The notes beneath the pieces are model-generated. The model ran no database searches, was not told the DNA's origin, and was given only the letters and a program-made list of their open reading frames with translations. DNA of 50,583 nucleotides from a virus. The stretch is taken from the IMG/VR virus record IMGVR_UViG_3300017917_003765, positions 1-50,583 of that record. One strand, 5' to 3'. Numbering within the stretch: position 1 is the stretch's first letter; every line of letters begins with the position of its first letter. Below, piece after piece: positions 4,401 to 28,847 of the stretch. The position numbers were made by a program, and so were the translations under genes.

Positions 4401-5342
4401 ATGGCATTTACAAGCCTTTCAGATCTGCGCCGCAGCCGCGGTGGTTTTGATCAACTAGTCAAAGAAGTAGAACGTATCAGCACACCAGCCGGTGAATCTA
4501 ATAAAAACGATGATCGTTTTTGGACACCCGATGTCGACAAAGCTGGTAATGGTTATGCAGTAATTCGTTTCCTCCCACCATCCAAAGGCGAAGAATTTCC
4601 CTTCGTTCGTGTTTGGAAGCATGCGTTCCAGGGACCGACTGGAAAATGGTACATTGAAAATAGTTTGACTACTATTGGTCAAAATGACCCAGTTGGTGAG
4701 TTAAATCAGGAACTTTGGAATTCAGGAACCGAAGCCAACAAAGAAGTTGCTCGCAAGCAGAAACGCAAACTGGAGTATATTACTAATATTCTGGTTGTTA
4801 CTGACAGCAAGCGTCCTGAAAACGAAGGCAAAGTTTTCCTGTTCAAGTTTGGTAAAAAGATCTGGGACAAGATCAAAGACGTAACCGAGCCACAGTTCGA
4901 AGATGAAAAGCCCATCAATCCCTTTGATTTCTGGGAAGGCGCTAACTTCAAACTAAAAATTCGCAATGTTGAAGGTTATCGTAACTATGATAAGTCTGAA
5001 TTTGACAAACCAAGTTCAGTTAGCGAGTCTGATGCCGATATTGAGAAAATTTGGTCTCAGCAACATAGTTTGACAGACTTTCATCATGCACGCCATTTCA
5101 AGAGCTATGATGAGCTTAAGAAGAAATTAGATTCAGTTTTGAATGCATCTGGTTCAGTTCCACGCAGAGCCGAGCAGATGAATTTAGATGAGGATGAAGT
5201 CGAAGTACCTTCAACTCGTTTTGGATCAGCAGAAAAAGCTTCCGCCCCAGCTAAAGCCAAGGCTACAGCACCCAGGAAGGAAGAAGATTTTGATGATACC
5301 GAAAGTCTCTCGTACTTCGCTAAACTAGCCAACGATGACTAG
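4401..5342 (+). CDS. gp32: Single-stranded DNA-binding protein gp32 (zinc-ligand cysteines absent)
   Basis: 313 residues with the gp32 architecture: a basic N-terminal cooperativity region (SLSDLRRSRGG), the OB-fold core including AGNGYAVIRFLPP (48-60), WKHAFQGPTGKWYIEN (72-87), the LEYITNILVV strand and ENEGKVFLFKFGKKIWDKI, then WEGANFKLKIRNVEGYRNYD, and an acidic C-terminal tail for protein contacts. It coats single-stranded DNA in replication, repair and recombination and works with gp59. T4 gp32 binds zinc with three Cys and one His; here the protein has no cysteine at all, with Ser, Asp and Gly at the Cys-equivalent places, while H74 remains. Similar loss is typical of cyanophage-type gp32. 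GGAG precedes the ATG by eight bases. Confidence 0.95.
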   Translation: MAFTSLSDLRRSRGGFDQLVKEVERISTPAGESNKNDDRFWTPDVDKAGNGYAVIRFLPPSKGEEFPFVRVWKHAFQGPTGKWYIENSLTTIGQNDPVGELNQELWNSGTEANKEVARKQKRKLEYITNILVVTDSKRPENEGKVFLFKFGKKIWDKIKDVTEPQFEDEKPINPFDFWEGANFKLKIRNVEGYRNYDKSEFDKPSSVSESDADIEKIWSQQHSLTDFHHARHFKSYDELKKKLDSVLNASGSVPRRAEQMNLDEDEVEVPSTRFGSAEKASAPAKAKATAPRKEEDFDDTESLSYFAKLANDD

Positions 5343-8984: not shown

Positions 8985-9652
8985 TATCTACTCCTTAGGG
9001 GTAAGCCACTCCTTGGATCTAAAAGTCTAAAAGCCGTGCTGGCTGGTTGTCTAACAATACTATTTTTATCTTCGGTATTCAGACCAGTTACACCTGTTTG
9101 TTTGGTAACTGGTGCCTGAGTTTCATACCAGCGTCTGAATCTAAAATTTACAGTATGCAGATGCGTTGCATTCTGTAGACTATGATTTAAATCTAGCTGC
9201 ACCTGTCCAGCCGGAAAAGCTTCTTCAAGAACAATGCTGTATGTGGCAGCATCTAAATCGTTCAATTGCGTTATTTTAATGGCTGGGCACAGATAGTCAC
9301 GCTGATAGCTAACTGTATATTGTGTACCATCTACTATGGTCTGCATCCAGGTATCGAACAATCGTTTGATCTGCATGGCCTGATCCAAATGAAACTGGAT
9401 AACCATGAACCCGCCATAGTTTATGCTCTTGGGTCTGTGTATGGCCGGTCCCCAGATCTGTTGCAGCTCAGCATTTATAGATAGCTCGGGAAAAACTGCG
9501 CTTTCAGCTAATAGACTGATGTCTCGTTGATCTATTTCTATGACCTGGGCTACTAAAGGTGGTACACTAAGTTCAACTTCGAACCTATTCTTTTTGGCCA
9601 GTCCTTTGTTAAGTACCGTGGCTCTAAAATTATCTACGCTAAATGTTGCCAT
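8984..9652 (-). CDS. Tail-tube-fold protein, probably baseplate tube initiator gp54
   Basis: 222 residues with the layout of the gp19/gp54 tube fold: KKNRFEVELSVPP near the start, FDTWMQTIVDG in the middle, and a C-terminal EEAFPAGQVQLDLNHSLQNA followed by VNFRFRRW, matching the conserved 'P...G.L.LD....I.TF.V....Y' strand pattern of T4 gp19. A 40-residue tail follows. It would nucleate tail-tube polymerisation on the hub (gp54 role) or be the tube itself; the place next to gp26 and gp4 and away from a sheath gene favours gp54. The exact paralogue cannot be decided from sequence alone. Confidence 0.65.
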   Translation of the reverse strand: MATFSVDNFRATVLNKGLAKKNRFEVELSVPPLVAQVIEIDQRDISLLAESAVFPELSINAELQQIWGPAIHRPKSINYGGFMVIQFHLDQAMQIKRLFDTWMQTIVDGTQYTVSYQRDYLCPAIKITQLNDLDAATYSIVLEEAFPAGQVQLDLNHSLQNATHLHTVNFRFRRWYETQAPVTKQTGVTGLNTEDKNSIVRQPASTAFRLLDPRSGLPLRSR

Positions 9653-12678: not shown

Positions 12679-14021
12679 ATACCCCTGCTAAATTAGAAAA
12701 TCCAGGCCAGTACGATCTAGAATTATTGCAACTAGTCAGCACTAGGGGGCTGGTTGTTAGTTTAGCTGACTACATGGTCGAATTCAATCTATACGAAGAT
12801 ATTTTTAGCCCAAGTCTCATGGGTACTATTGTCATTACAGACAAACTTAATCTCATAGAAAAGATGCCCATAGTCGGTGAAGAATTGCTGGTAGTTAAAA
12901 TTACTACACCAACATTTCCGACCAGCATAGAAAAGACTTTTAGGGTAACTAGGATTTCTGACAAGCATATTGTACAGGGGCAGAACGCACATTTTTATAC
13001 CCTGCATTTTGTTAGTCAAGAATTAGTTTTGGACATGAATGCACCAATTTACAGAAGCTTCGAGGGCAATATAGACGATGTAGCTGTAAGAATTTTTGAA
13101 GATTATGTTGCAATGAGCAGGACTCTAAATGAAGATCAAAAACGATTAGTAGAAAGTAACGAAGATACTCCGCTTAAAATTTTAACCGAAACTAAAAACA
13201 AAGTTAAATTTGTAAGTCCAGGCTGGACTGCTTTCAAGTGTTTGAATTGGTTGGCCAGTAAAGCCATACCCAAAGATGGTGAAGCCTGTAATTTTTTATT
13301 CTGGGAAAGTAATAAATGCTTTTATTTTGCCAGTTTAGAAACTATCTTTAGAGATGTGCATAGAGAAAAACGATTTGTTGGTACCTATACCTTTTCACCC
13401 AACAACATACGAACAGGGCCTGAACGGGATACCATTAGAGAAATGTTTTTGACTGACAGTGTGGAAACAGTTCAAACTGTTGATCATGCAAAAAACTATA
13501 CCAGTGGTTATCTTGCTAATCGCCTTATAGAATTAGATCTTGTAAATAAGAAATATGAACTGGTTGATTATGATCATGTTTATAAATTCTATGATTATCA
13601 TCACATGAGCGGACAGACTGAAAAAGAAGTATTACCCTTTTTTGCGTTAGACAGTATGCGTAATGCAGAATGCAATATTATGTTTTATCCTAAACATACT
13701 AAACTTTTCGACAATGCCGATGATAATGTTAATGAAGTCTATCGTGATATACATGGTAATAGAAAAAGTAATCTGTTAGAATTAGATAATTTTAAACTTA
13801 ACATCAATGTCCCGGGGCGTACTGATGTTGAATGCGGGCAGATGATTTACCTAAAATACCCAGCCATTGAACCAAAAGATACGCAGGATAAAAATAAAGA
13901 GAAATTAGATCCTTTATATTCAGGAGCGTATCTAATAACTGCCATAAGACATCAGTTCAATGGTATAAGACATAAAATGATTTTAGAACTAACCAAAGAT
14001 AGTTTGTCAGGTAATTTGTAA
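12675..14021 (+). CDS. Baseplate hub protein, gp27-like
   Basis: 448 residues with the gp27/VgrG-N hub layout: an N-terminal beta-barrel (SLADYMVEFNLYEDIFSPSLMGTI...), a central helical region (SPGWTAFKCLNWLASKA), a second barrel, and the closing SGAYLITAIRHQFNG strand that is common to hub proteins of myoviruses. As a trimer it forms the ring between tube and spike. It sits directly before the gp5-like spike gene, as hub and spike genes do in related phages, and shares a TAATG overlap with it. Confidence 0.75.
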   Translation: MNTPAKLENPGQYDLELLQLVSTRGLVVSLADYMVEFNLYEDIFSPSLMGTIVITDKLNLIEKMPIVGEELLVVKITTPTFPTSIEKTFRVTRISDKHIVQGQNAHFYTLHFVSQELVLDMNAPIYRSFEGNIDDVAVRIFEDYVAMSRTLNEDQKRLVESNEDTPLKILTETKNKVKFVSPGWTAFKCLNWLASKAIPKDGEACNFLFWESNKCFYFASLETIFRDVHREKRFVGTYTFSPNNIRTGPERDTIREMFLTDSVETVQTVDHAKNYTSGYLANRLIELDLVNKKYELVDYDHVYKFYDYHHMSGQTEKEVLPFFALDSMRNAECNIMFYPKHTKLFDNADDNVNEVYRDIHGNRKSNLLELDNFKLNINVPGRTDVECGQMIYLKYPAIEPKDTQDKNKEKLDPLYSGAYLITAIRHQFNGIRHKMILELTKDSLSGNL

Positions 14022-17546: not shown

Positions 17547-18344
17547 ATGACAACCTGGTACAGAATTTTACCCGATAAGCTTAGCATAAATGAAAGCGGA
17601 CTTTTTAGAACTGTTACATTTACTGTTCTAACTGCAAATGTAAATAACGGCACAGTATTATACTGGAATAACATAGGCAGTACACAGGCTAGCGATTTTA
17701 CTGATGGAAATAATAGTGGTAATGTAATTGTAACCAGCAATAGCGGTTCTTTCTCTAGAACGCTGGTAAATGATCTAACTACAGAAGGCAATGAAACTAT
17801 AATTATGCAGTTAAGGACTGGTAGTCCTTCTGGAAATATTGTAAACGTTTCACCTACTGTTACTGTTGTAGATACCAGTACAACACCGGCTCCTCCATCA
17901 CCACCCCCTAGCCCACCCCCATCACCACCCCCTGGTCCACCTCCACCACCAGGGCCTCCACCATCTCCACCAAGTCCACCTCCGAGTCCTCCACCTCCAC
18001 TGCCAGTGCCAGCGCCCCCACCAGCGTTGCCCGAAGGATATTCATATTACAGGGCCAATGTATTCTTCTTGGTTGGCCTGAACAACAGCAGAAAAACTTC
18101 GGTTAATGTGTTTAGAAAACCAGGACCAGTGCCCGATATCAATACACAAACTGGTTACGGCCCCGAAGATATAGACCCTAATGCTAACGGTGGACAGCAC
18201 GTGGGGATCTTCATACTTTCGGATTTTCATACACCGGTTGAGAAATTAGTTGCAGCTCGCAGTCTAGGAGAAGCCATAGCTTTGTTTAACGTAACATATG
18301 GAGCCCAAAACATCTTAGATACTCCTCAGATAGTAGAATTTTGA
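17547..18344 (+). CDS. Calx-beta domain, proline-rich linker and unknown C-terminal domain
   Basis: 265 residues in three parts. Residues 1-110 are one complete Calx-beta-like domain (SINESGLFRTVTFTVLTANV, then DLTTEGNETIIMQLR, closing TVVDTS). Residues 113-165 are an extensin-like Ser/Pro run (SPPP and PPPGPP units, more than 35 prolines). Residues 166-265 form a compact alpha/beta domain without a recognised family. Calx-beta domains bind calcium and mediate adhesion; the proline run is a stiff spacer. It sits between the spike and gp25, so it is likely a baseplate-borne adhesin or tether. The proline run could be a substrate of the phage P4H-like enzyme (inference). Confidence 0.7.
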   Translation: MTTWYRILPDKLSINESGLFRTVTFTVLTANVNNGTVLYWNNIGSTQASDFTDGNNSGNVIVTSNSGSFSRTLVNDLTTEGNETIIMQLRTGSPSGNIVNVSPTVTVVDTSTTPAPPSPPPSPPPSPPPGPPPPPGPPPSPPSPPPSPPPPLPVPAPPPALPEGYSYYRANVFFLVGLNNSRKTSVNVFRKPGPVPDINTQTGYGPEDIDPNANGGQHVGIFILSDFHTPVEKLVAARSLGEAIALFNVTYGAQNILDTPQIVEF

Positions 18345-18767: not shown

Positions 18768-20648
18768 ATGGCTAATTTTAGAATCACCGAGCTGGATTTT
18801 GACAGCATAAAAAGTAATCTAAAAGATTTCTTGCGCCAGCAAGATACACTGAATAGCTATGATTTTGAAGGTAGCGCTTTAAGTGTACTTATAGATTTAC
18901 TGGCATATAATACTCATTACAATGCCTATTTGGCCAATATGCTGGCTAATGAAATGTTTTTAGACAGCGCAGTAAAAAGAGAAAGTGTAGTTAGCATAGC
19001 CAGACATCTTGGCTTTGTGCCACGCAGTGCCCGAGGCGCTGTAGCCAAGGTTAATTTTAGTATTGCAGACAATACAACTGGTGCAGCAGTAGCGACATTA
19101 GAAAAATATAGCTTGTTTAATTTTACCATTAATGGCAAGACCTATCCCTTTGTTAACATAGATGCTGTAAACAGCTTTGGCATAGGCAATACCTATAATT
19201 TTACCAATGTTGAGCTTAAACAGGGCACACCTGAAATCTACAGATTTACTGTAAGAAATCCTGGACCCGATGAGAAGTATGTTATACCCAATGATAATAT
19301 AGACACAACCAGTATTTCGGTTAGCGTTCAGTCCAGTGCCACTGATACAACAACTACAACATACAAACTGGTCAGCAGCATAGATGGCGTAGACGGTACC
19401 TATCAAAAGGGTAGGGTTTGCTTTCTAGAAGAAAATCAATTTGGAAAATATCAGCTTTACTTTGGCGATGGAGTAGTAGGCTACAAATTAACTGCAGGAA
19501 ATATCATCAATGTTGAATATGTAATAACTAGAGGTGCTGAATCCAATAGTTTACCTACCGAAGAAGTTGCCTTTACTTTAAACACTGTACCTACTAATCT
19601 TACTACTAGTACTCTACTTACCAGAACAGTTTTGTCTAAACCCAACTATGGTTCGGCCAAACAGACCATAAATGAAATAAAGTTTTTAGCGCCATTAATT
19701 CGTGCAGCGCAGGATCGAGCAGTTACTAAAAATGATTATGAAGCTTTAATTTTAAACAATAAGCCGCAGATTGAAAGCATAAGTGTCTGGGGCGGCGAAG
19801 AAAATGATCCTCCTGTTTATGGTAAAATTTTTATAAGTGCCAAACCAATAGTTGGTCAGGTACTTAGCGAAGCAACCAAAGAAGAAATAAAAAACGATAT
19901 TTTAGCAACCAGAAAGGTTTTAGCTCTAACGCCCGAAGTAGTTGACCCAGACTATCTTTACGTTGGACTCAACATAACTGTAAAATTTAATAGCAACGTA
20001 GCTGGTTCTAGTGCTTCTAAATTAAATAGCTTGATTAGGCTCAAGACAGAGAACTATTTTAACAATGAACTTGAAAAATTTAACAAGAAATTTATTTATT
20101 ATAAATTTTTAAATGAAATCGATAGCTTGGATGAAAGCATAACCAGCATACTGACTAGTATAAAAATACAACGAAGATTAGATCTAAGACTGAATACTAC
20201 TAATGAATTTAGCAGATTTAATAGTATTAAAATGTATAATAAAATACATCCTAATAGTGTTCGTAGTACGTATTTTACCTATCAAGATTTAGATGGTGTT
20301 TTAAGATCTGCTTATTTTAAAGACAATGGTGGTTTAAATCCTGATTACAATGGTTCTGGTACATTAGAACTATGGACCATAAATCCCATAACCAATGTTT
20401 CCTCATTAGCTCTTCCAAACCAGGGACTGGTAAACTATGCTACTGGTGAAATAAGCACCAAGAGTTTCATTCCCAGAGGTTATCCTGCTGCTTTAAACGA
20501 TTTTAGATTTACTGCTGATGTGCAAGAGGCAAATTATGATGTCACAGTATCTAAAAACATTTTAATCACTTTAGATGATAGTTTATTTGTACCAACTGCT
20601 GGTTTATCTGCTGGTTTAAATATTTCGGTCATTTCAGTAAGCGAATAA
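18768..20648 (+). CDS. gp6: Baseplate wedge gp6
   Basis: 626 residues, near T4 gp6 (660). The N-terminus is diagnostic: FRITELDFDSIKSNLKDFL, YDFEGSALSVLIDLLAYNTHYNAYLANM, RESVVSIARHLGFVPRSARGA, followed by the Baseplate_J-like region (RAVTKNDYEALI, KIFISAKPIVGQVLSEATKEEI). gp6 makes the inner ring connecting wedges. No gap to gp25 and a TAATG overlap with gp7 imply one translational unit. Confidence 0.95.
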   Translation: MANFRITELDFDSIKSNLKDFLRQQDTLNSYDFEGSALSVLIDLLAYNTHYNAYLANMLANEMFLDSAVKRESVVSIARHLGFVPRSARGAVAKVNFSIADNTTGAAVATLEKYSLFNFTINGKTYPFVNIDAVNSFGIGNTYNFTNVELKQGTPEIYRFTVRNPGPDEKYVIPNDNIDTTSISVSVQSSATDTTTTTYKLVSSIDGVDGTYQKGRVCFLEENQFGKYQLYFGDGVVGYKLTAGNIINVEYVITRGAESNSLPTEEVAFTLNTVPTNLTTSTLLTRTVLSKPNYGSAKQTINEIKFLAPLIRAAQDRAVTKNDYEALILNNKPQIESISVWGGEENDPPVYGKIFISAKPIVGQVLSEATKEEIKNDILATRKVLALTPEVVDPDYLYVGLNITVKFNSNVAGSSASKLNSLIRLKTENYFNNELEKFNKKFIYYKFLNEIDSLDESITSILTSIKIQRRLDLRLNTTNEFSRFNSIKMYNKIHPNSVRSTYFTYQDLDGVLRSAYFKDNGGLNPDYNGSGTLELWTINPITNVSSLALPNQGLVNYATGEISTKSFIPRGYPAALNDFRFTADVQEANYDVTVSKNILITLDDSLFVPTAGLSAGLNISVISVSE

Positions 20649-23600
20649 TGTCTGCAGAATTTTTAGAAAATAGAATAAGTTCACTGGCTCCAAGCCAGTT
20701 GCCCGATCATGTTCGTCATGAGTATGAAAATTTTGTATTCTTTGCCGAAGCATATTACGAATATCTTGAACAGAAAAAATTACCCCAAGAAATAATTCAA
20801 AATATTACTGATTATGCAAATATTGACGATACTATTGATGAATTTATAAATTATTTTTATAAAAATTATTGCGCTGATATACCAACTAACCCAGAAGCCA
20901 ATAAAAAACTTACTCTTAAAAAGATAAATGAACTCTACAACCATAAGGGTTCAGAAAAAGCAGTACGATTGCTTTTTAGATTATTATTCAATAATGATGT
21001 CGGGTTTTATTATCCAGAAATACAGGTTTTAAAGGCCAGTGGTGGTAGGTGGTCCCAGCGGTTATCTATAAAAGTTTCTGGAAATTGGGATAGTGTTAAA
21101 AATCTTATTGGCCATAAAGTAACTGGACTTGTTTCTGGTGCAACTGCACGAGTAGTTAATGCTGAATATCAAACAGGTACGGGCATTACAGAATTGTTTT
21201 TAGATAGGAAAACTTTAAACGGTACTTTTGTGCCCTATGAAGACGTATCTGGAAATTTACCTGGTCAAAGCAACGAGTTGTTTTTAGGTAGAATTTTTAA
21301 TGCGTTTTTAGGTAGAGATCCAACAGAAACAGAACTAGCAGCATATTTGAGTGATCTAGTCTCGTTAACCTCTGAACCTCGTGATATAATTCAGGAAATA
21401 GCCCAATCTGAAGAATGCGAATCTTACCTGGTAGCCAATCTAGATTTTATGAAAACGTTAATCATTACCTGTACGGGGGATGAGTTAACTATTTCGGATT
21501 ATGTGTCTAATTATGGACCCAGACTAACATCTGGTGTTAGCCGGTCTACCATTACAACCGAGGTCTTAAATTTAAAATCTAGTGTAGAATATCTCAGATA
21601 TGTTTTAAGAAACAATGATAGTATAATAATATCTGCTAATATTAGACCCATAGTAAGCAATGTTACTGTTCTTGATAGAGGCTATAATTATAATGTTGGT
21701 GATATTGTAACCATTGATACAGACGTCAAAGGTAATAATGGTGTTTTGGGTACAGTTACAGAAATTAGTTATTTTACCAAACCAAACTATGACGGTAACA
21801 TTGCCAATGGGAATCCAATAATTAATGGCATAGTTAAAATAGATTTAGATAACTATGACGCGGTTAATGTTACCTATGCTAACGCAAATTTAATTCTAAG
21901 TAGATTTGATTTAAGCGGTGTAAATGTAATTCGGCGAGGGCAATGGCAAAATAATATGCCTGCATTACATAGTAATATAGTTTCTGGAAACAGTAGTTTA
22001 AGTTTTGGTCAAAGAGCAAATCTCAAGGCCTATATTGGTGCCATGTGCGAATACTCGGGTACCTGGAAAAGAGATAAACGCAGTAAAGTTCAAGAAGGTG
22101 TTATAAGTTTACCGGAAAGCAAATTTGGTGGTATGGTGCTGCGTGGTAGAAGAGACGATGGCTCACTAGAAGATGATTTAAACAGATTTATATCCGATGT
22201 TTATTTTTATTTGTTGAATCGTACGCCATCTACTGATGAGTATCAAAACTATAAAAGTGTAATTAAACGTGGCGATATTAAAAACATAGGACAATTATTC
22301 AGTGATGTAATCGTCGAACTTGCTGACAAGGCTGAATTTAGGGATACAAAGAAATACAAAGATAGTACTATATTTTTAGAAACAATATATCAGATTTGTG
22401 TGGGTAGATATCCTGAGTCTGAAGGGTTTAAATTTTGGTATAGTATTTTAAGATCCAATGGGTTTTCTAGGGAAATAAAATCCGATGTAGTACGGCAAAT
22501 AAGTTCAAGCGAAGAGGCCTTAGCATATTTTAGAAAGACTTACAACCCAGAGATACTGATCACTGATGATGTTTACTATCAACCCTTTAGCTACGAATTA
22601 CAGACCAGTGAAAATATAAATGTCTGGCGCGAAATAGTAAAGAAACTAGTACATCCTGCTGGCCTAGTATTTTTTGGTAGAACAAAAATATCAAACCCAG
22701 CTGCTAAAATTGACGATACTCCAGGAAAGATAGAAGCAAAGGTTCGTGGTATAGGCAGCATAAGGGGTATCTATAACTATCTTAATGTTGCTATTCGAGT
22801 ATTAAAAACTTTACCTACTTTAGCTCCAGTTCCTGTTCAGTATGCTATTAAAGAGAAAAGAATCTTTTCTAGTGTAACAGGAGCTAATGCCAATATTAGT
22901 TATATAGGTTCTGGTCCTAGATATGCAACCATAGATCGTTGGAAGTTTAGCTATAGTGCTACTGTTGATGGTCAGGATGAGATGTATGCACAGGTATTGG
23001 CTAACATTACTTTGGATAGGTTTGATGCTGACAATATTCGCAGCAAATATGATATTACACCACCATTATATACAGCCATTTCAAATCTAAGTCCATGGAC
23101 CTTTAGTGTTGTTCCTAGCGCTAATGAAATAGCCGAAGGCAGAGTTGTAACATTTAATATTATAACAGCAAATGTTCCAGATGGAATCTCAGTACTTTAC
23201 TTAATTGAGCGAGTAACTGCTGACGAAACTCTTGTACTAGAAGATAATAATAGTTTCTTACTTGAAAATAGTTCAGTTTTAGAATTGGAATCAGCAACTA
23301 GTGAGATCGCTAATAATTCTCCGCGTACAGACATTGGTTATTTGCTAGATGGTTTAACACAACAAGATCCAGTTGCCAATGCTTCTCATTTATTATATCA
23401 GAACCCTAGTATTAACAATGGAAACTATTATATAAATTGGAGCAATAACGCTTTAATCAATAATGCGGTTCTTACATACTGTGATATGAATGCAGGCAAT
23501 GTTAATAGTTCTGCCAACGGCTGGATGTTAATTGATACCACCATGCTCAATGTTTATGATTCTGCTATGGGTGTTGGTTTGAGAAACATGACAAGATCTG

Positions 23601-24064
23601 GTTCCCAATATAATGCTAATAGTTTTGACGGTATAAAAATAATGAGTATACCTATACCAAGAAAAATTCGTGGTATTCGTGTTGAATACATAGAATTAGA
23701 AAACATAGGTTTCGCTGGAGGCACTGTTAACAGACTTGATCTAGATACTGTTTATAATGCTAGCATTGGACTTAGTGTTACGCTAGGTTCTGGATTTGAT
23801 CATTTTGGTGTTAGTGTTCATAGTTCTAATAACATGGGCAATACATACTTAAGTCTTAGCACTATAGCTAATTTGCAAAATACCTTCCAGGGTGTCAAGT
23901 TGTTCGGTAACGAAGGGTATGCTCACAAACGTGGAAATGCTAATTTGGTATATTTCACACAAACCGATAATGTTGGTTTCGATATAGACCGAATCGTCAT
24001 AAGTCAAAGCGATGGACTAAACAAACAAATTAACATCAGAGACATGAGAATCTGGGTCCGATAA
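20648..24064 (+). CDS. gp7: Baseplate wedge gp7 with DUF4214-like repeats and a C-terminal adhesion module
   Basis: 1138 residues. Residues 1-140 match gp7 of aquatic T4-like phages (YYEYLEQKKLPQEII, IDEFINYFYKNYC, YNHKGSEKAVRLLFRLLF). Three DUF4214-like helical repeats follow at about 209-262, 512-560 and 572-628 (FLGRDPTETELAAYLSDL, LLNRTPSTDEYQNY, CVGRYPESEGFKFWYSIL). Residues 817-855 read as the first half of a Calx-beta domain (EIAEGRVVTFNIITANVPDG) and then stop matching. Residues 857-1138 form a different module whose NYYINW...TYCDMN...GWMLI pattern resembles fibrinogen-like domains. The wedge part builds the baseplate arm; the C-terminal module may bind the host surface. Confidence 0.85.
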   Translation: MSAEFLENRISSLAPSQLPDHVRHEYENFVFFAEAYYEYLEQKKLPQEIIQNITDYANIDDTIDEFINYFYKNYCADIPTNPEANKKLTLKKINELYNHKGSEKAVRLLFRLLFNNDVGFYYPEIQVLKASGGRWSQRLSIKVSGNWDSVKNLIGHKVTGLVSGATARVVNAEYQTGTGITELFLDRKTLNGTFVPYEDVSGNLPGQSNELFLGRIFNAFLGRDPTETELAAYLSDLVSLTSEPRDIIQEIAQSEECESYLVANLDFMKTLIITCTGDELTISDYVSNYGPRLTSGVSRSTITTEVLNLKSSVEYLRYVLRNNDSIIISANIRPIVSNVTVLDRGYNYNVGDIVTIDTDVKGNNGVLGTVTEISYFTKPNYDGNIANGNPIINGIVKIDLDNYDAVNVTYANANLILSRFDLSGVNVIRRGQWQNNMPALHSNIVSGNSSLSFGQRANLKAYIGAMCEYSGTWKRDKRSKVQEGVISLPESKFGGMVLRGRRDDGSLEDDLNRFISDVYFYLLNRTPSTDEYQNYKSVIKRGDIKNIGQLFSDVIVELADKAEFRDTKKYKDSTIFLETIYQICVGRYPESEGFKFWYSILRSNGFSREIKSDVVRQISSSEEALAYFRKTYNPEILITDDVYYQPFSYELQTSENINVWREIVKKLVHPAGLVFFGRTKISNPAAKIDDTPGKIEAKVRGIGSIRGIYNYLNVAIRVLKTLPTLAPVPVQYAIKEKRIFSSVTGANANISYIGSGPRYATIDRWKFSYSATVDGQDEMYAQVLANITLDRFDADNIRSKYDITPPLYTAISNLSPWTFSVVPSANEIAEGRVVTFNIITANVPDGISVLYLIERVTADETLVLEDNNSFLLENSSVLELESATSEIANNSPRTDIGYLLDGLTQQDPVANASHLLYQNPSINNGNYYINWSNNALINNAVLTYCDMNAGNVNSSANGWMLIDTTMLNVYDSAMGVGLRNMTRSGSQYNANSFDGIKIMSIPIPRKIRGIRVEYIELENIGFAGGTVNRLDLDTVYNASIGLSVTLGSGFDHFGVSVHSSNNMGNTYLSLSTIANLQNTFQGVKLFGNEGYAHKRGNANLVYFTQTDNVGFDIDRIVISQSDGLNKQINIRDMRIWVR

Positions 24065-27000
24065 TGGGAACAAATGTAATAGCTAGTTTGGGCAGCGTAA
24101 CCATAACCAATAATGTTGCAGCTGTACCAGTATATTTTAGAAAAGATGCTCTGACCGAAGGAACAGAAACTTTTAGATTTGTGCTATTAGCCAGCAGAGA
24201 TTATGCACTATATTCTAACATAGTCTCTACTGTTACAGTTTATGATAACAGCATAGCTCGCACTTTGGTATTAACAACAACAGCTACGGCTAATACTGCT
24301 AACGAAGGTGAAAGTTATATTGTCAACATTTATACAACAGAAATGGATGATGGTACTACTTTACAATGGCAAATTGATGGTGTTGACCAATATGATTTAG
24401 CTACTGCGTTGAACGGTAATGTGGTTTTAGTAGACAACTATGCTAACGTAAGGGTAGCTACAGTTCGTGATAGAAATACCGAAGGTCCCGAGACTGTGTA
24501 TTTTAGAATTTTATCTAATACACACCCCAGTGTAGAAATACCTAACAATGTTTACGCTAATGTCAGTCTTGTTGACACCAGCAGAACACCAAACTTTTAT
24601 TTGTATTCAAATGTGGTTACCTGTAATGAAGGTGATGCTGTAGAGTACATTCTTGAAACAGCTAATCTTGAAACTAATGTTATTTTTACCTATAACATAG
24701 AAGGCATAAGTCAAAACGATCTAGCCTTTGGTACAGTCACTGGCAAATTTGCACATAATAGTTATAGTGGTAACGCATTTGGAAACGGTAACGTTGTAAT
24801 TAGATTTGCCAAAGACTTTATTACTGAAGGTAATGAAACTGCTAGGTTTAATATTTTTCCAGATCCTAGCATAAAATTACTTACCAATCTTTATGCCAAC
24901 GTAGTAGTTGTTGACAGTAGTCGTACACCATCTTATAGTTTGTCTGCAAATGTTTTACAATTACAAGAAGGCTCAACAGCTTTATTTACATTGACAGGAG
25001 CTAATGTTGATAATAATGTTAGTTTTAACTATGTAATTGAAAACGTTAACGCTGCTGATTTAGTTGGCGGCTCAGCTGTACTAAAAGGCGACATGCTGTT
25101 TATTAGTAATGATGGCGGCTTTACTGGAACTGCTACTAAAGCAATAGGCATGGCTCGTGACAAAACAACAGAAGGCACAGAAACACTAGTATTTAAAGTA
25201 TTGGCCAATCCACAATACCGACTGAATACCAATCTAAGTGTCCAAATTTCTGTTCTAGATACCAGTAAGTATCCAACCTTATCTTTAACTGCCAACAGAT
25301 CTGATGTTAGAGAAAATGGTGTCGTGCAATTTAATATAACTTCTACAGACATCGACAATGGCACTAGCATAGAATATCTTGTGTCTCCTATAGCAGATGT
25401 TAATAGTCATGTTAGTGCTGCAGTCTATACAACAACTTCTGGTCAGTTTGTTGTAAATGCAACAGGTCAATCCAGTATTATTGTTAACATGAAAGAAGAT
25501 TTCATTACCGAAGGTACTGAATATCTGACCATAACTGTTCCTGCCATACCTAACATGTATTTGGATGGCAGATCAGTTACAATACCTATTATAGACAGTA
25601 GTCAAACACCATCTTTAAGTTTTAGCAAGGACAAGGATCCTGTTGATGAAGGCGATCAGGTTACCATAACTGTAACTGGTACTAATATACCTAACGGTAC
25701 TACCATAAGTTGGAGTATAACAGCAGGTTCTAGCGACGTTACCCCAACTAGCGGTTCGTTCATACTAACAGCCGGGCCTAATTGGCCAACTTCTAGTAAT
25801 TCCATAGTTCTTACAGCCATAGCGGATTCTACTACAGAAGGTTGGGAAAATTATACTATTACTACTGGAGCAGTTGCTGCTATAGGTATGCCCAGTTACA
25901 CAGTTACTGGCAGCATTAACGATACCAGTGTGGCACCACCACCTCCACCGGTCAGCCCACCACCAGCTAGCACGCCGCCACCTCCAGGTGCAGTATTAAA
26001 TACATTTTTTAATGGTAATTTCGAATTTACTAGCCCAGTGTCTACAGTGGGTACAACAGTAAGCATACCAGGTTGGAAGATTTATCAAGAGTCTCTAAGG
26101 CTCAATGGCTTTAGCACTATCTTAAACTTTCCAACTCCACAGGATCCTACACCCAGTCCTCGTAGTGCTCCAACACCTTACGGTGACGAACCTGCTACAA
26201 GCATGGCCTATAGTTATGAGTTCGTCACAGACAGTATAGGTGATTTTGGTGGCCAGACAGTACTAAGATTAATTAGTAATGGGGGTACAGCGTCACCATA
26301 CGGCATTTCGAGAGGTCCTTATGTTGTAAGCGATTATGCTATTACTACAGCCATAGGTGATAAAGTAGTATTTCACTGGAAAGCCGAATATGGTAGTGAT
26401 GACTACGATGTATTTGCCTATCTAATTAATGAAACAACTGGACAAATCATATTGCTTTTAGACGACAATGGTTATACTACTAGCGGCTGGCAGCGAGTAG
26501 AAAAGACCATAGGTGCAGGTGAAACAGGTACCTTTAAATTTGTATTCATTTGTGGAAGCTATGATGCATCAGGTGGCATGGCACTTGGTGCTAGCCTTTA
26601 TCTGGACAACATAGACATCATAAAAGCAGTATCAGCACCACCGCCAGCACCACCTGCTGTACCTCCTGCACCCATAGCATCAGCTCCAGCTGCACCTGCT
26701 GCAATAGTTGTTAGTTGCTCCAGTGCCAGTGTAGTAGCTGACATAGGCAGTCGAGGTCCAGGTTGGTATATATTTGACATAGATTGTGGTGTGTTGACTG
26801 GTACTTTCTCTATTAATTTAGATTTTCTAAATAATTATGATTTCGCTGAACTTAATTGGAATGGTAACACTGTTGATACAGGCATCAGCAAGGGAATAAA
26901 AACTCTTTCAATTAACAAAACAGCATCAGCACCAAATAGCATACGGTTGCAGATCAATAGAAATAATATTACTGTTACTAATCCTTCTCAATATTCATCG

Positions 27001-27444
27001 GGCGAATGGAATACTGGTGGCTGGTGGAATGGCAGCGGCTGGAATGTACTAAGTGTTAGTTGCCCCAGTACTAATCCAACACCACCCCCTACTGCTCCGT
27101 ATTCACCGTTACCTGACGGCACAGTAACCTGCCCAGCACTATACAATGGTGTTAGCTTAACTGGAACTGGTACTTTTACCAATGGGGTTGCTTTGGTTAC
27201 AGGTAGCCTTAATGGCGGAACCGTATGGGGAAATAATACTCAAGGCTACACTGACGACAGCGACTTTAGACGGGCAGTTGTTCATGCAGGACTTTTAAAC
27301 CCAGGGCAGTCTGGAATTATTACATTCACGCCCCTGGGTTTCAGAACTAATTACAATGGTACAACAAGCAATGGCGTAACTACTACTGACTGGCCTTCGG
27401 GTTGGTGCGGTGTTCAGTTATCATTGTTTAGTTTAGTTACTTAA
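24064..27444 (+). CDS. Multidomain baseplate adhesin: Calx-beta repeats, carbohydrate-binding-like and LCCL-like domains
   Basis: 1126 residues. It begins with only the second half of a Calx-beta domain (FRKDALTEGTETFRFVLL), followed by five full Calx-beta repeats (about 76-620), each with a TEGxE motif and a VxDxSxTP boundary. A Pro-rich linker (622-645) leads to a jelly-roll-like domain (NGNFEF, PGWKIYQ, SLYLDNIDIIK; 647-855), a second Pro/Ala linker, a domain with WYIFDIDCG, and an LCCL-like C-terminus (VWGNNTQGYTDDSDF, RRAVVHAG, YNGTTSNGV). It is probably a long flexible calcium-binding fibre attached to gp7, to which it is joined by a TAATG overlap. All domain names are from motif reading. 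Confidence 0.75.
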   Translation: MGTNVIASLGSVTITNNVAAVPVYFRKDALTEGTETFRFVLLASRDYALYSNIVSTVTVYDNSIARTLVLTTTATANTANEGESYIVNIYTTEMDDGTTLQWQIDGVDQYDLATALNGNVVLVDNYANVRVATVRDRNTEGPETVYFRILSNTHPSVEIPNNVYANVSLVDTSRTPNFYLYSNVVTCNEGDAVEYILETANLETNVIFTYNIEGISQNDLAFGTVTGKFAHNSYSGNAFGNGNVVIRFAKDFITEGNETARFNIFPDPSIKLLTNLYANVVVVDSSRTPSYSLSANVLQLQEGSTALFTLTGANVDNNVSFNYVIENVNAADLVGGSAVLKGDMLFISNDGGFTGTATKAIGMARDKTTEGTETLVFKVLANPQYRLNTNLSVQISVLDTSKYPTLSLTANRSDVRENGVVQFNITSTDIDNGTSIEYLVSPIADVNSHVSAAVYTTTSGQFVVNATGQSSIIVNMKEDFITEGTEYLTITVPAIPNMYLDGRSVTIPIIDSSQTPSLSFSKDKDPVDEGDQVTITVTGTNIPNGTTISWSITAGSSDVTPTSGSFILTAGPNWPTSSNSIVLTAIADSTTEGWENYTITTGAVAAIGMPSYTVTGSINDTSVAPPPPPVSPPPASTPPPPGAVLNTFFNGNFEFTSPVSTVGTTVSIPGWKIYQESLRLNGFSTILNFPTPQDPTPSPRSAPTPYGDEPATSMAYSYEFVTDSIGDFGGQTVLRLISNGGTASPYGISRGPYVVSDYAITTAIGDKVVFHWKAEYGSDDYDVFAYLINETTGQIILLLDDNGYTTSGWQRVEKTIGAGETGTFKFVFICGSYDASGGMALGASLYLDNIDIIKAVSAPPPAPPAVPPAPIASAPAAPAAIVVSCSSASVVADIGSRGPGWYIFDIDCGVLTGTFSINLDFLNNYDFAELNWNGNTVDTGISKGIKTLSINKTASAPNSIRLQINRNNITVTNPSQYSSGEWNTGGWWNGSGWNVLSVSCPSTNPTPPPTAPYSPLPDGTVTCPALYNGVSLTGTGTFTNGVALVTGSLNGGTVWGNNTQGYTDDSDFRRAVVHAGLLNPGQSGIITFTPLGFRTNYNGTTSNGVTTTDWPSGWCGVQLSLFSLVT

Positions 27445-27482: not shown

Positions 27483-28847
27483 ATGGCTGCAATCATAACC
27501 AACTATTATCGTTTATTCAATGCCAAACAATTCATAGAAAGTGTAAAGGAACCGTTTGCTGGTGGCGATGCCAATGCAAATGCCATACACTATGTGTTTA
27601 TTGGCAGGCCGCAGAGCTGGTCCAACGATAATTTACCCCCTACCCCGGTTGACACAGTAAATCTTCAGTTCGAAGTCTATAAAGACATGGTGGCCCTGAA
27701 GAAAGTTACTGCTTCCGAAGTATCGCATGTTATACCCAGAGAAGATTGGGTTTCAGGTACAGTTTATGACGAATATGATCATGCCATGTCGTCTACCAAT
27801 CCTGCTTATAGCGGCGCAACATCATTGTTCCTTAGTAACTTTTACGTACTTACCGACGAATACAAAGTATATAAATGTTTATTCAATAATGGTAATGGTG
27901 CTAGCACTGTAAAACCAACAAGTACTAGTACAACACCAGTTACCTTGGCAGATGGTTATATATGGAAATACATGTATACCATAGACACAGATAGTGTCTT
28001 AAACTTTCTAACTCCAGAGTTCATGCCTGTAAAGGCCTGCACAACGGTGCAAGCAGCAGCAGTTGATGGCGCCATAGAAATAATTAAGATAGTAAGCGGC
28101 GGAAGTGGTTATGTTAGTACACCAACAGTTTCCATAGTTGGTGACGGAAATGCTGCAGTATCAGCTGTTGCTACTAGAGTTGGCGGTAACATTGCTAATA
28201 TTACAGTTCAGACAGCTGCCAATGGTTGGCATGTAGCCAACGTTACATTGGTTGGTGGTGCACCCAACGCCAATGCTACTGCTCGTGCCATACTTAGCCC
28301 GCCAGGTGGACATGGTAGTAATCCTGTTGACGAATTAGGCGGGTACTATGTAATGATGACCAGCAGACTACAGTATAATGAAGGAGCAGGAGACTACCCA
28401 ACAACCAATGACTTTAGACGCATAGGTATTCTTGTAGATCCTTTATTTTATACCAATGGCAACGTAAGAGCTAATGCGAATACTCTTAGCGCTACCTGGA
28501 GTATTACAACATCAAACACAACAGCCGCTTTTGCTATAGATGAAGTAATTCGAGGCAATGTTAGTGGGGCTAATGCTAGAATATTAACTACTACAGATCC
28601 TGTTATAGGTGGAAACAGCATAACCAGATATATCCAACCCATTGACGATACATCGTCAAATCAGACAACATTCCAGGTAGGAGATTATGTTACAGGAGTA
28701 ACCAGCGGTACTATAGGCATAGTTACTCAGGTTAGTCCACCAGAAGTCAAACCACATTCTGGTAGTGTAATTTATGTAGATAATAGAAAGCCAATTAGCA
28801 GAGCAGCGGATCAGGCAGAAAGTATTCACATTGTTGTAGAATTCTAA
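27483..28847 (+). CDS. gp8: Baseplate wedge gp8
   Basis: 454 residues. The N-terminus AAIITNYYRLFNAKQFIESV, then YVFIGRPQSWSND...PPTPVDT, the YKVYKCLFNNGNGASTVKP motif and DGYIWKYMYTID match gp8 of T4-like aquatic phages (T4 gp8 has 334 residues). The extra length comes from Gly/Val/Asn-rich repeats between residues 195 and 270 and 310-430 (SGGSGY-type turns). gp8 dimers form part of each wedge. Has its own late promoter. Confidence 0.8.
   Translation: MAAIITNYYRLFNAKQFIESVKEPFAGGDANANAIHYVFIGRPQSWSNDNLPPTPVDTVNLQFEVYKDMVALKKVTASEVSHVIPREDWVSGTVYDEYDHAMSSTNPAYSGATSLFLSNFYVLTDEYKVYKCLFNNGNGASTVKPTSTSTTPVTLADGYIWKYMYTIDTDSVLNFLTPEFMPVKACTTVQAAAVDGAIEIIKIVSGGSGYVSTPTVSIVGDGNAAVSAVATRVGGNIANITVQTAANGWHVANVTLVGGAPNANATARAILSPPGGHGSNPVDELGGYYVMMTSRLQYNEGAGDYPTTNDFRRIGILVDPLFYTNGNVRANANTLSATWSITTSNTTAAFAIDEVIRGNVSGANARILTTTDPVIGGNSITRYIQPIDDTSSNQTTFQVGDYVTGVTSGTIGIVTQVSPPEVKPHSGSVIYVDNRKPISRAADQAESIHIVVEF

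Follow-up and report, generated by a model that had tools for sequence, protein, structure and literature searches.

The DNA analysed here, referred to throughout as the window, is a 50.6 kb virus record fragment from an uncultured T4-like phage. Its baseplate region runs gp6 (18768–20648), gp7 (20648–24064), an open reading frame termed ORF2 (24064–27444) and gp8 (27483–28847). The assignment of gp7 follows from its homology to PHROG 17744 and PF23786 and from its gp6 and gp8 neighbours, which were identified by both PHROG and Pfam. The wedge protein also contains two DUF4214 domains. ORF2 opens with a 63-aa partial repeat, continues through five intact repeats of 109–115 aa and carries an LCCL domain at its C terminus. 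LCCL domains occur mostly in eukaryotic extracellular proteins; the ORF2 of the related contig L085 has one too, slightly under the Pfam cut-off. The features of the locus are as follows.

20648–24064, plus strand: gp7-type baseplate wedge protein of 1138 aa with a C-terminal extension, between the gp6 and gp8 homologues (PHROG 17744 baseplate wedge, E 5e-48; PF23786; DUF4214).
23099–23233, plus strand: N-terminal part of the split Calx-beta domain, gp7 residues 818–862, strands A–C (profile positions 4–48 of 113, 30 bits).
23234–23323, plus strand: linker from the N-terminal half to the inserted module, far shorter in L085 by alignment.
23324–24061, plus strand: inserted module, tentatively fibrinogen/collagen-C-propeptide-like, ending in ...RIWVR (44–45% identical module in L085; weak COLFI and collagen C-propeptide matches).
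24062–24066, plus strand: TAATG, the gp7 stop overlapping the ORF2 start, read from the sequence and the same in L085 (same junction type at gp6/gp7, 20648).
24064–27444, plus strand: ORF2, a Calx-beta-repeat protein of 1126 aa with a C-terminal LCCL domain (ORF list, Pfam, repeat profile).
24082–24252, plus strand: C-terminal part of the split Calx-beta domain, ORF2 residues 7–63, strands D–G (profile positions 51–113, 29 bits).
24253–25929, plus strand: five intact Calx-beta-like repeats (24253–24582, 24583–24921, 24922–25266, 25267–25602 and 25603–25929; repeat profile).
27217–27396, plus strand: LCCL domain of ORF2 (PF03815, E 3.4e-6).

The original prediction held that gp7 and the next gene each encode part of one Calx-beta domain, and a profile of the repeats bears this out. 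The 11 intact repeats behind the profile comprised five of ORF2, five of the L085 orthologue and one of L003; both halves were left out. The gp7 segment matches positions 4–48 (30 bits, iE 2e-8 for 1000 sequences) and the ORF2 segment positions 51–113 (29 bits, iE 4e-8 for 1000 sequences), so that the two parts do not overlap, together cover one domain and are both intact. Joined, they span positions 4–113 at 76 bits, and the maximum for the shuffled joined sequence was 10.9 bits (n=300). When orthologue pairs were held out in turn, the joined halves scored 70–83 bits in the window and 68–77 in L085, and intact repeats 46–85. Since the joined halves score like held-out intact repeats, neither half has decayed. 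The gp7 and ORF2 halves are one complete, undegraded Calx-beta-like domain. The L085 halves are likewise complementary, at positions 4–43 and 52–113.

The N-terminal half had been placed correctly but drawn too short, at residues 817–855 (23096–23215) as against 818–862 in the profile match, and the next gene does begin at 24064 with the C-terminal half. The halves are separated by 276 gp7 codons, of which the module takes up ~246. Some 282 codons of fibrinogen-like module with a stop and a new start had been described, and the module, stop and start are all present; behind the fibrinogen label are weak matches, to COLFI (E 0.07) and to the collagen alpha-1(III) C-propeptide (E 0.24). The module also has YCDM...GW motifs, which we take to be fibrinogen-like, and a fibrinogen-like identity judged from these features is plausible, not proven. 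Matches of the module to RecA were rejected as chance, being ~7 bits per copy summed over artificial RecA fusions.

The intact repeats are predicted to adopt a Calx/NCX CBD-type beta-sandwich. Repeat 1 of ORF2 was modelled at a pLDDT of about 92 (AF2, 16 natural rows), with strands A (67–72), A' (78–80), B (84–92), C (99–105), D (117–121), E (126–133), F (143–149) and G (164–170). Foldseek matched this model to 3e9t, 3ead and 2dpk with E values of 5e-4 to 3e-3. The best single-domain PDB matches are CALX CBD1, for which 3e9t and 3ead give a TM of about 0.65 by target. No ORF2 repeat is called by Pfam above the PF03160 gathering score, and related phage proteins reach 17.7–20.9 bits, under the cut-off of 27. 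Because this cut-off is not reached, 'Calx-beta-like' is the safe wording; the Calx-beta identity is based on structural similarity to CALX/NCX CBD1 together with the sub-threshold PF03160 matches in related phage proteins. The repeats share with known Calx-beta domains (PF03160; CALX/NCX CBD1 and CBD2) the predicted beta-sandwich and the EG and D..TEG.E motifs, whereas their sequence is too distant for the Pfam cut-off and one copy is split over two genes. Acidic motifs occur in both halves of that copy, and any Ca2+ binding is putative. A further Calx-beta-like domain, complete and followed by a long PPPSPPP stretch, lies in a small protein at 17547–18344 of the window, flanked by gp5-like and gp25-like genes.

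On the predicted fold the split falls in one surface loop, the C–D loop, between strands C and D of repeat 1. Modelled with shallow alignment in ORF2 1–173, the C-terminal half forms strands F and G, and strands D and E are absent. Their absence hints at an incomplete domain. The possibility that each half belongs to a complete separate domain is thus disfavoured for the C-terminal half, and the AF2 model of the gp7 tail (809–1138), at a pLDDT of 43, was set aside.

The junction is shared by a second phage. L085 (IMGVR 3300025732_000480) is an independent uncultured contig and the one relative found to span the junction, so that the arrangement is known from two phages, both uncultured contigs. 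L085 is 62–65% identical to the window in gp7 (core 62%) and 74% in gp6, and it keeps the N-terminal half, module, TAATG and C-terminal half in the same order. Because L085 has the identical arrangement, the split is older than the divergence of the two lineages. The C-terminal half is 57% identical between them with a codon pos2/pos3 ratio of 0.35, like repeat 1 and more constrained than repeats 2–5 (0.53–0.60). The N-terminal half is 50% identical, over 40 residues only, with a ratio of 0.55. Both halves have thus been kept under constraint, although conservation of each half is also expected if each pairs with another partner.

The gp7 and ORF2 genes lie in different frames. The window has TAATG at the gp6/gp7 boundary and at position 14021 as well, and L085 has it at 4659 and 6539. 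Since the same junction recurs in this way, we take the gp7/ORF2 stop/start as an ordinary boundary for this phage group, and it is probably translation-coupled. In L085 the module is split as well: gp7 ends in ...YYVDWTV*, followed by TAAGATG at 9266–9272 and a next ORF beginning MSNPVLIYC... In a simulation, ~5% of random one-base indels gave an in-frame ATG that near the stop; the break is possibly a real second gene break, or else a one-base indel error. An extra repeat in the L085 ORF2 (892–931 / 1013–1052) holds an in-chain extra stretch in the same loop as the split. With a weak match for its N-part (4 bits), this is suggestive only of an in-chain insertion there.

The proposal that a single gene was interrupted by a mobile cassette found no direct support. 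IMG/VR was scanned with gp7, the gp7 tail, the module, ORF2 and the stretch immediately upstream, and no fused or module-free relative came up; L085 alone covers the junction, and the L002 and L086 contigs stop short of it. GTDB genomes likewise contained no such relative. In INPHARED, tblastn gave no match to the gp7 tail and one weak match to ORF2, and in the cultured relatives Cr30, Melnitz, Mosig, RHph_I1_18 and BUCT-ZZ01 no significant Calx-beta lies close to gp7. The fused relative that had been called for was thus not found, but with one relative covering the site this carries little weight. Nor does a recent interruption fit: L085 shares the split and its identical arrangement, neither half has decayed, and the event is old.

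In other relatives, cassettes do move at such sites. L024, L025 and L026 are about 91% identical; at the gp7/Calx-beta gene, L026 (5251–6708) is without a cassette, and an S8 protease, different in each, is present in L025 and L024. In L025 (3510–5660) the protease has a truncated Calx copy on one side and a full one on the other, the opening ~258 bp of the Calx gene being present on both sides, and in L024 (11317–13886) a different S8 subtilase ORF, inserted near the same gene start, ends within a Calx repeat. Movement of cassettes at the Calx-beta sites in the gp7 region is therefore real in these three contigs, and by analogy may extend to the window locus. Gene division at Calx-beta repeats also recurs. 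In L022, L026, L028 and L034, gp7 consists of two adjacent ORFs, and in L022 (11851–14676) and L026 (3874–6708) the second ORF holds the gp7 HPAG C-terminal region. Freshwater-type relatives carry the second half of gp7 in an ORF beginning with three Calx-beta repeats. As in the window, the gp7 region of L022, L026, L028 and L034 spans neighbouring genes that meet at Calx-beta repeats; unlike in the window, their second ORF opens with complete Calx-beta domains and no half-domain.

The second reading offered by the original prediction, that the two halves still complement each other, is strengthened at the level of sequence, since both halves are as canonical as intact repeats and the C-terminal half ranks with the best-conserved stretches of ORF2. 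We favour, at a probability of about 0.5, an old conserved split in which the module entered the C–D loop, the gene split where the module ends, the two halves come together again across chains and ORF2 is thereby anchored to the wedge. An ancestral Calx-beta repeat adjoining the gp7 C terminus would have received the fibrinogen-like module in its C–D loop. Fission would have come later, TAATG dividing the gene between the last residues of the module and strand D; this order, insertion and then fission, is our inference. As they stand, gp7 ends with strands A–C and the module, and ORF2 opens with strands D–G ahead of its five intact repeats. The coupled genes would be translated in succession, the N-terminal half-domain of ORF2 completing the gp7 half non-covalently. 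The Calx-beta-rich ORF2 would in this way dock to the baseplate wedge, the module looping out where the two meet.

The main rival is that modular shuffling left two unpaired half-domains, each folding by itself into a small beta-structure or packing against its neighbour. Gene breaks and domain truncations are indeed common in the region, as in the L024 ORF that ends inside a Calx repeat and the truncated Calx before the L025 protease, and the lone C-terminal half still forms strands F and G in the ORF2 1–173 model. Yet leftover halves would not be expected to score like intact repeats, to include, at a distance that leaves gp7 only 62% identical, one of the best-conserved stretches of ORF2, or to have edges that agree within a few residues in the window and L085. 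We consider this rival unlikely, if the most serious. Less probable again is that the halves pair with other copies or partners, for example on neighbouring wedges or in the Calx-beta protein at 17547–18344. The baseplate contains several copies of gp7, and that protein supplies another intact Calx domain; its domain is, however, already complete, and the adjacency of the genes and their overlapping stop and start favour pairing of gp7 with ORF2. We regard as improbable a single chain, produced by programmed frameshifting or stop bypass and giving a domain-in-domain fusion. Strand D does follow within a few residues of the module's end, as it would in a nested insertion, but TAATG is an ordinary junction in this phage group, no slippery heptamer was seen by eye at the gp7 stop, and a clean stop and ATG are kept in two divergent phages. 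An assembly or sequencing artefact, conceivable for a metagenomic contig, is refuted by L085, an independent contig with the same stop, start and domain order, and scarcely merits consideration.

The old conserved split would place the locus among natural cases of fragment or strand complementation, such as donor-strand pili and split inteins. The likeness is that two chains would complete one fold; the differences are that each part here is about half a beta-sandwich, rather than one strand, and that no splicing is implied. Domain-in-domain insertion and mosaicism have been described for phage tail proteins, with modules shuffled into tail and baseplate proteins (PMC10684548). The present locus adds a gene break within the host domain, and that break is conserved, a case for which a term search of that source gave no counterpart. 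A literature search for Calx-beta in phage baseplates found no paper.

That phage tails shuffle domains is well established, but a gene boundary is usually assumed to be a domain boundary too. More tentatively than the split itself, we propose that this is a natural inter-protein split Calx-beta domain that serves as a docking joint, two coupled genes rebuilding one beta-sandwich with a third module looped out; as the L085 module is also divided, there may be two consecutive split domains in that phage. Domains spanning two ORFs are missed by gene-by-gene annotation and folding. If true, a conserved gene boundary inside a domain would offer a simple, testable route from a fusion protein to a two-part assembly, and such split-domain pairs may be a source for linking proteins.
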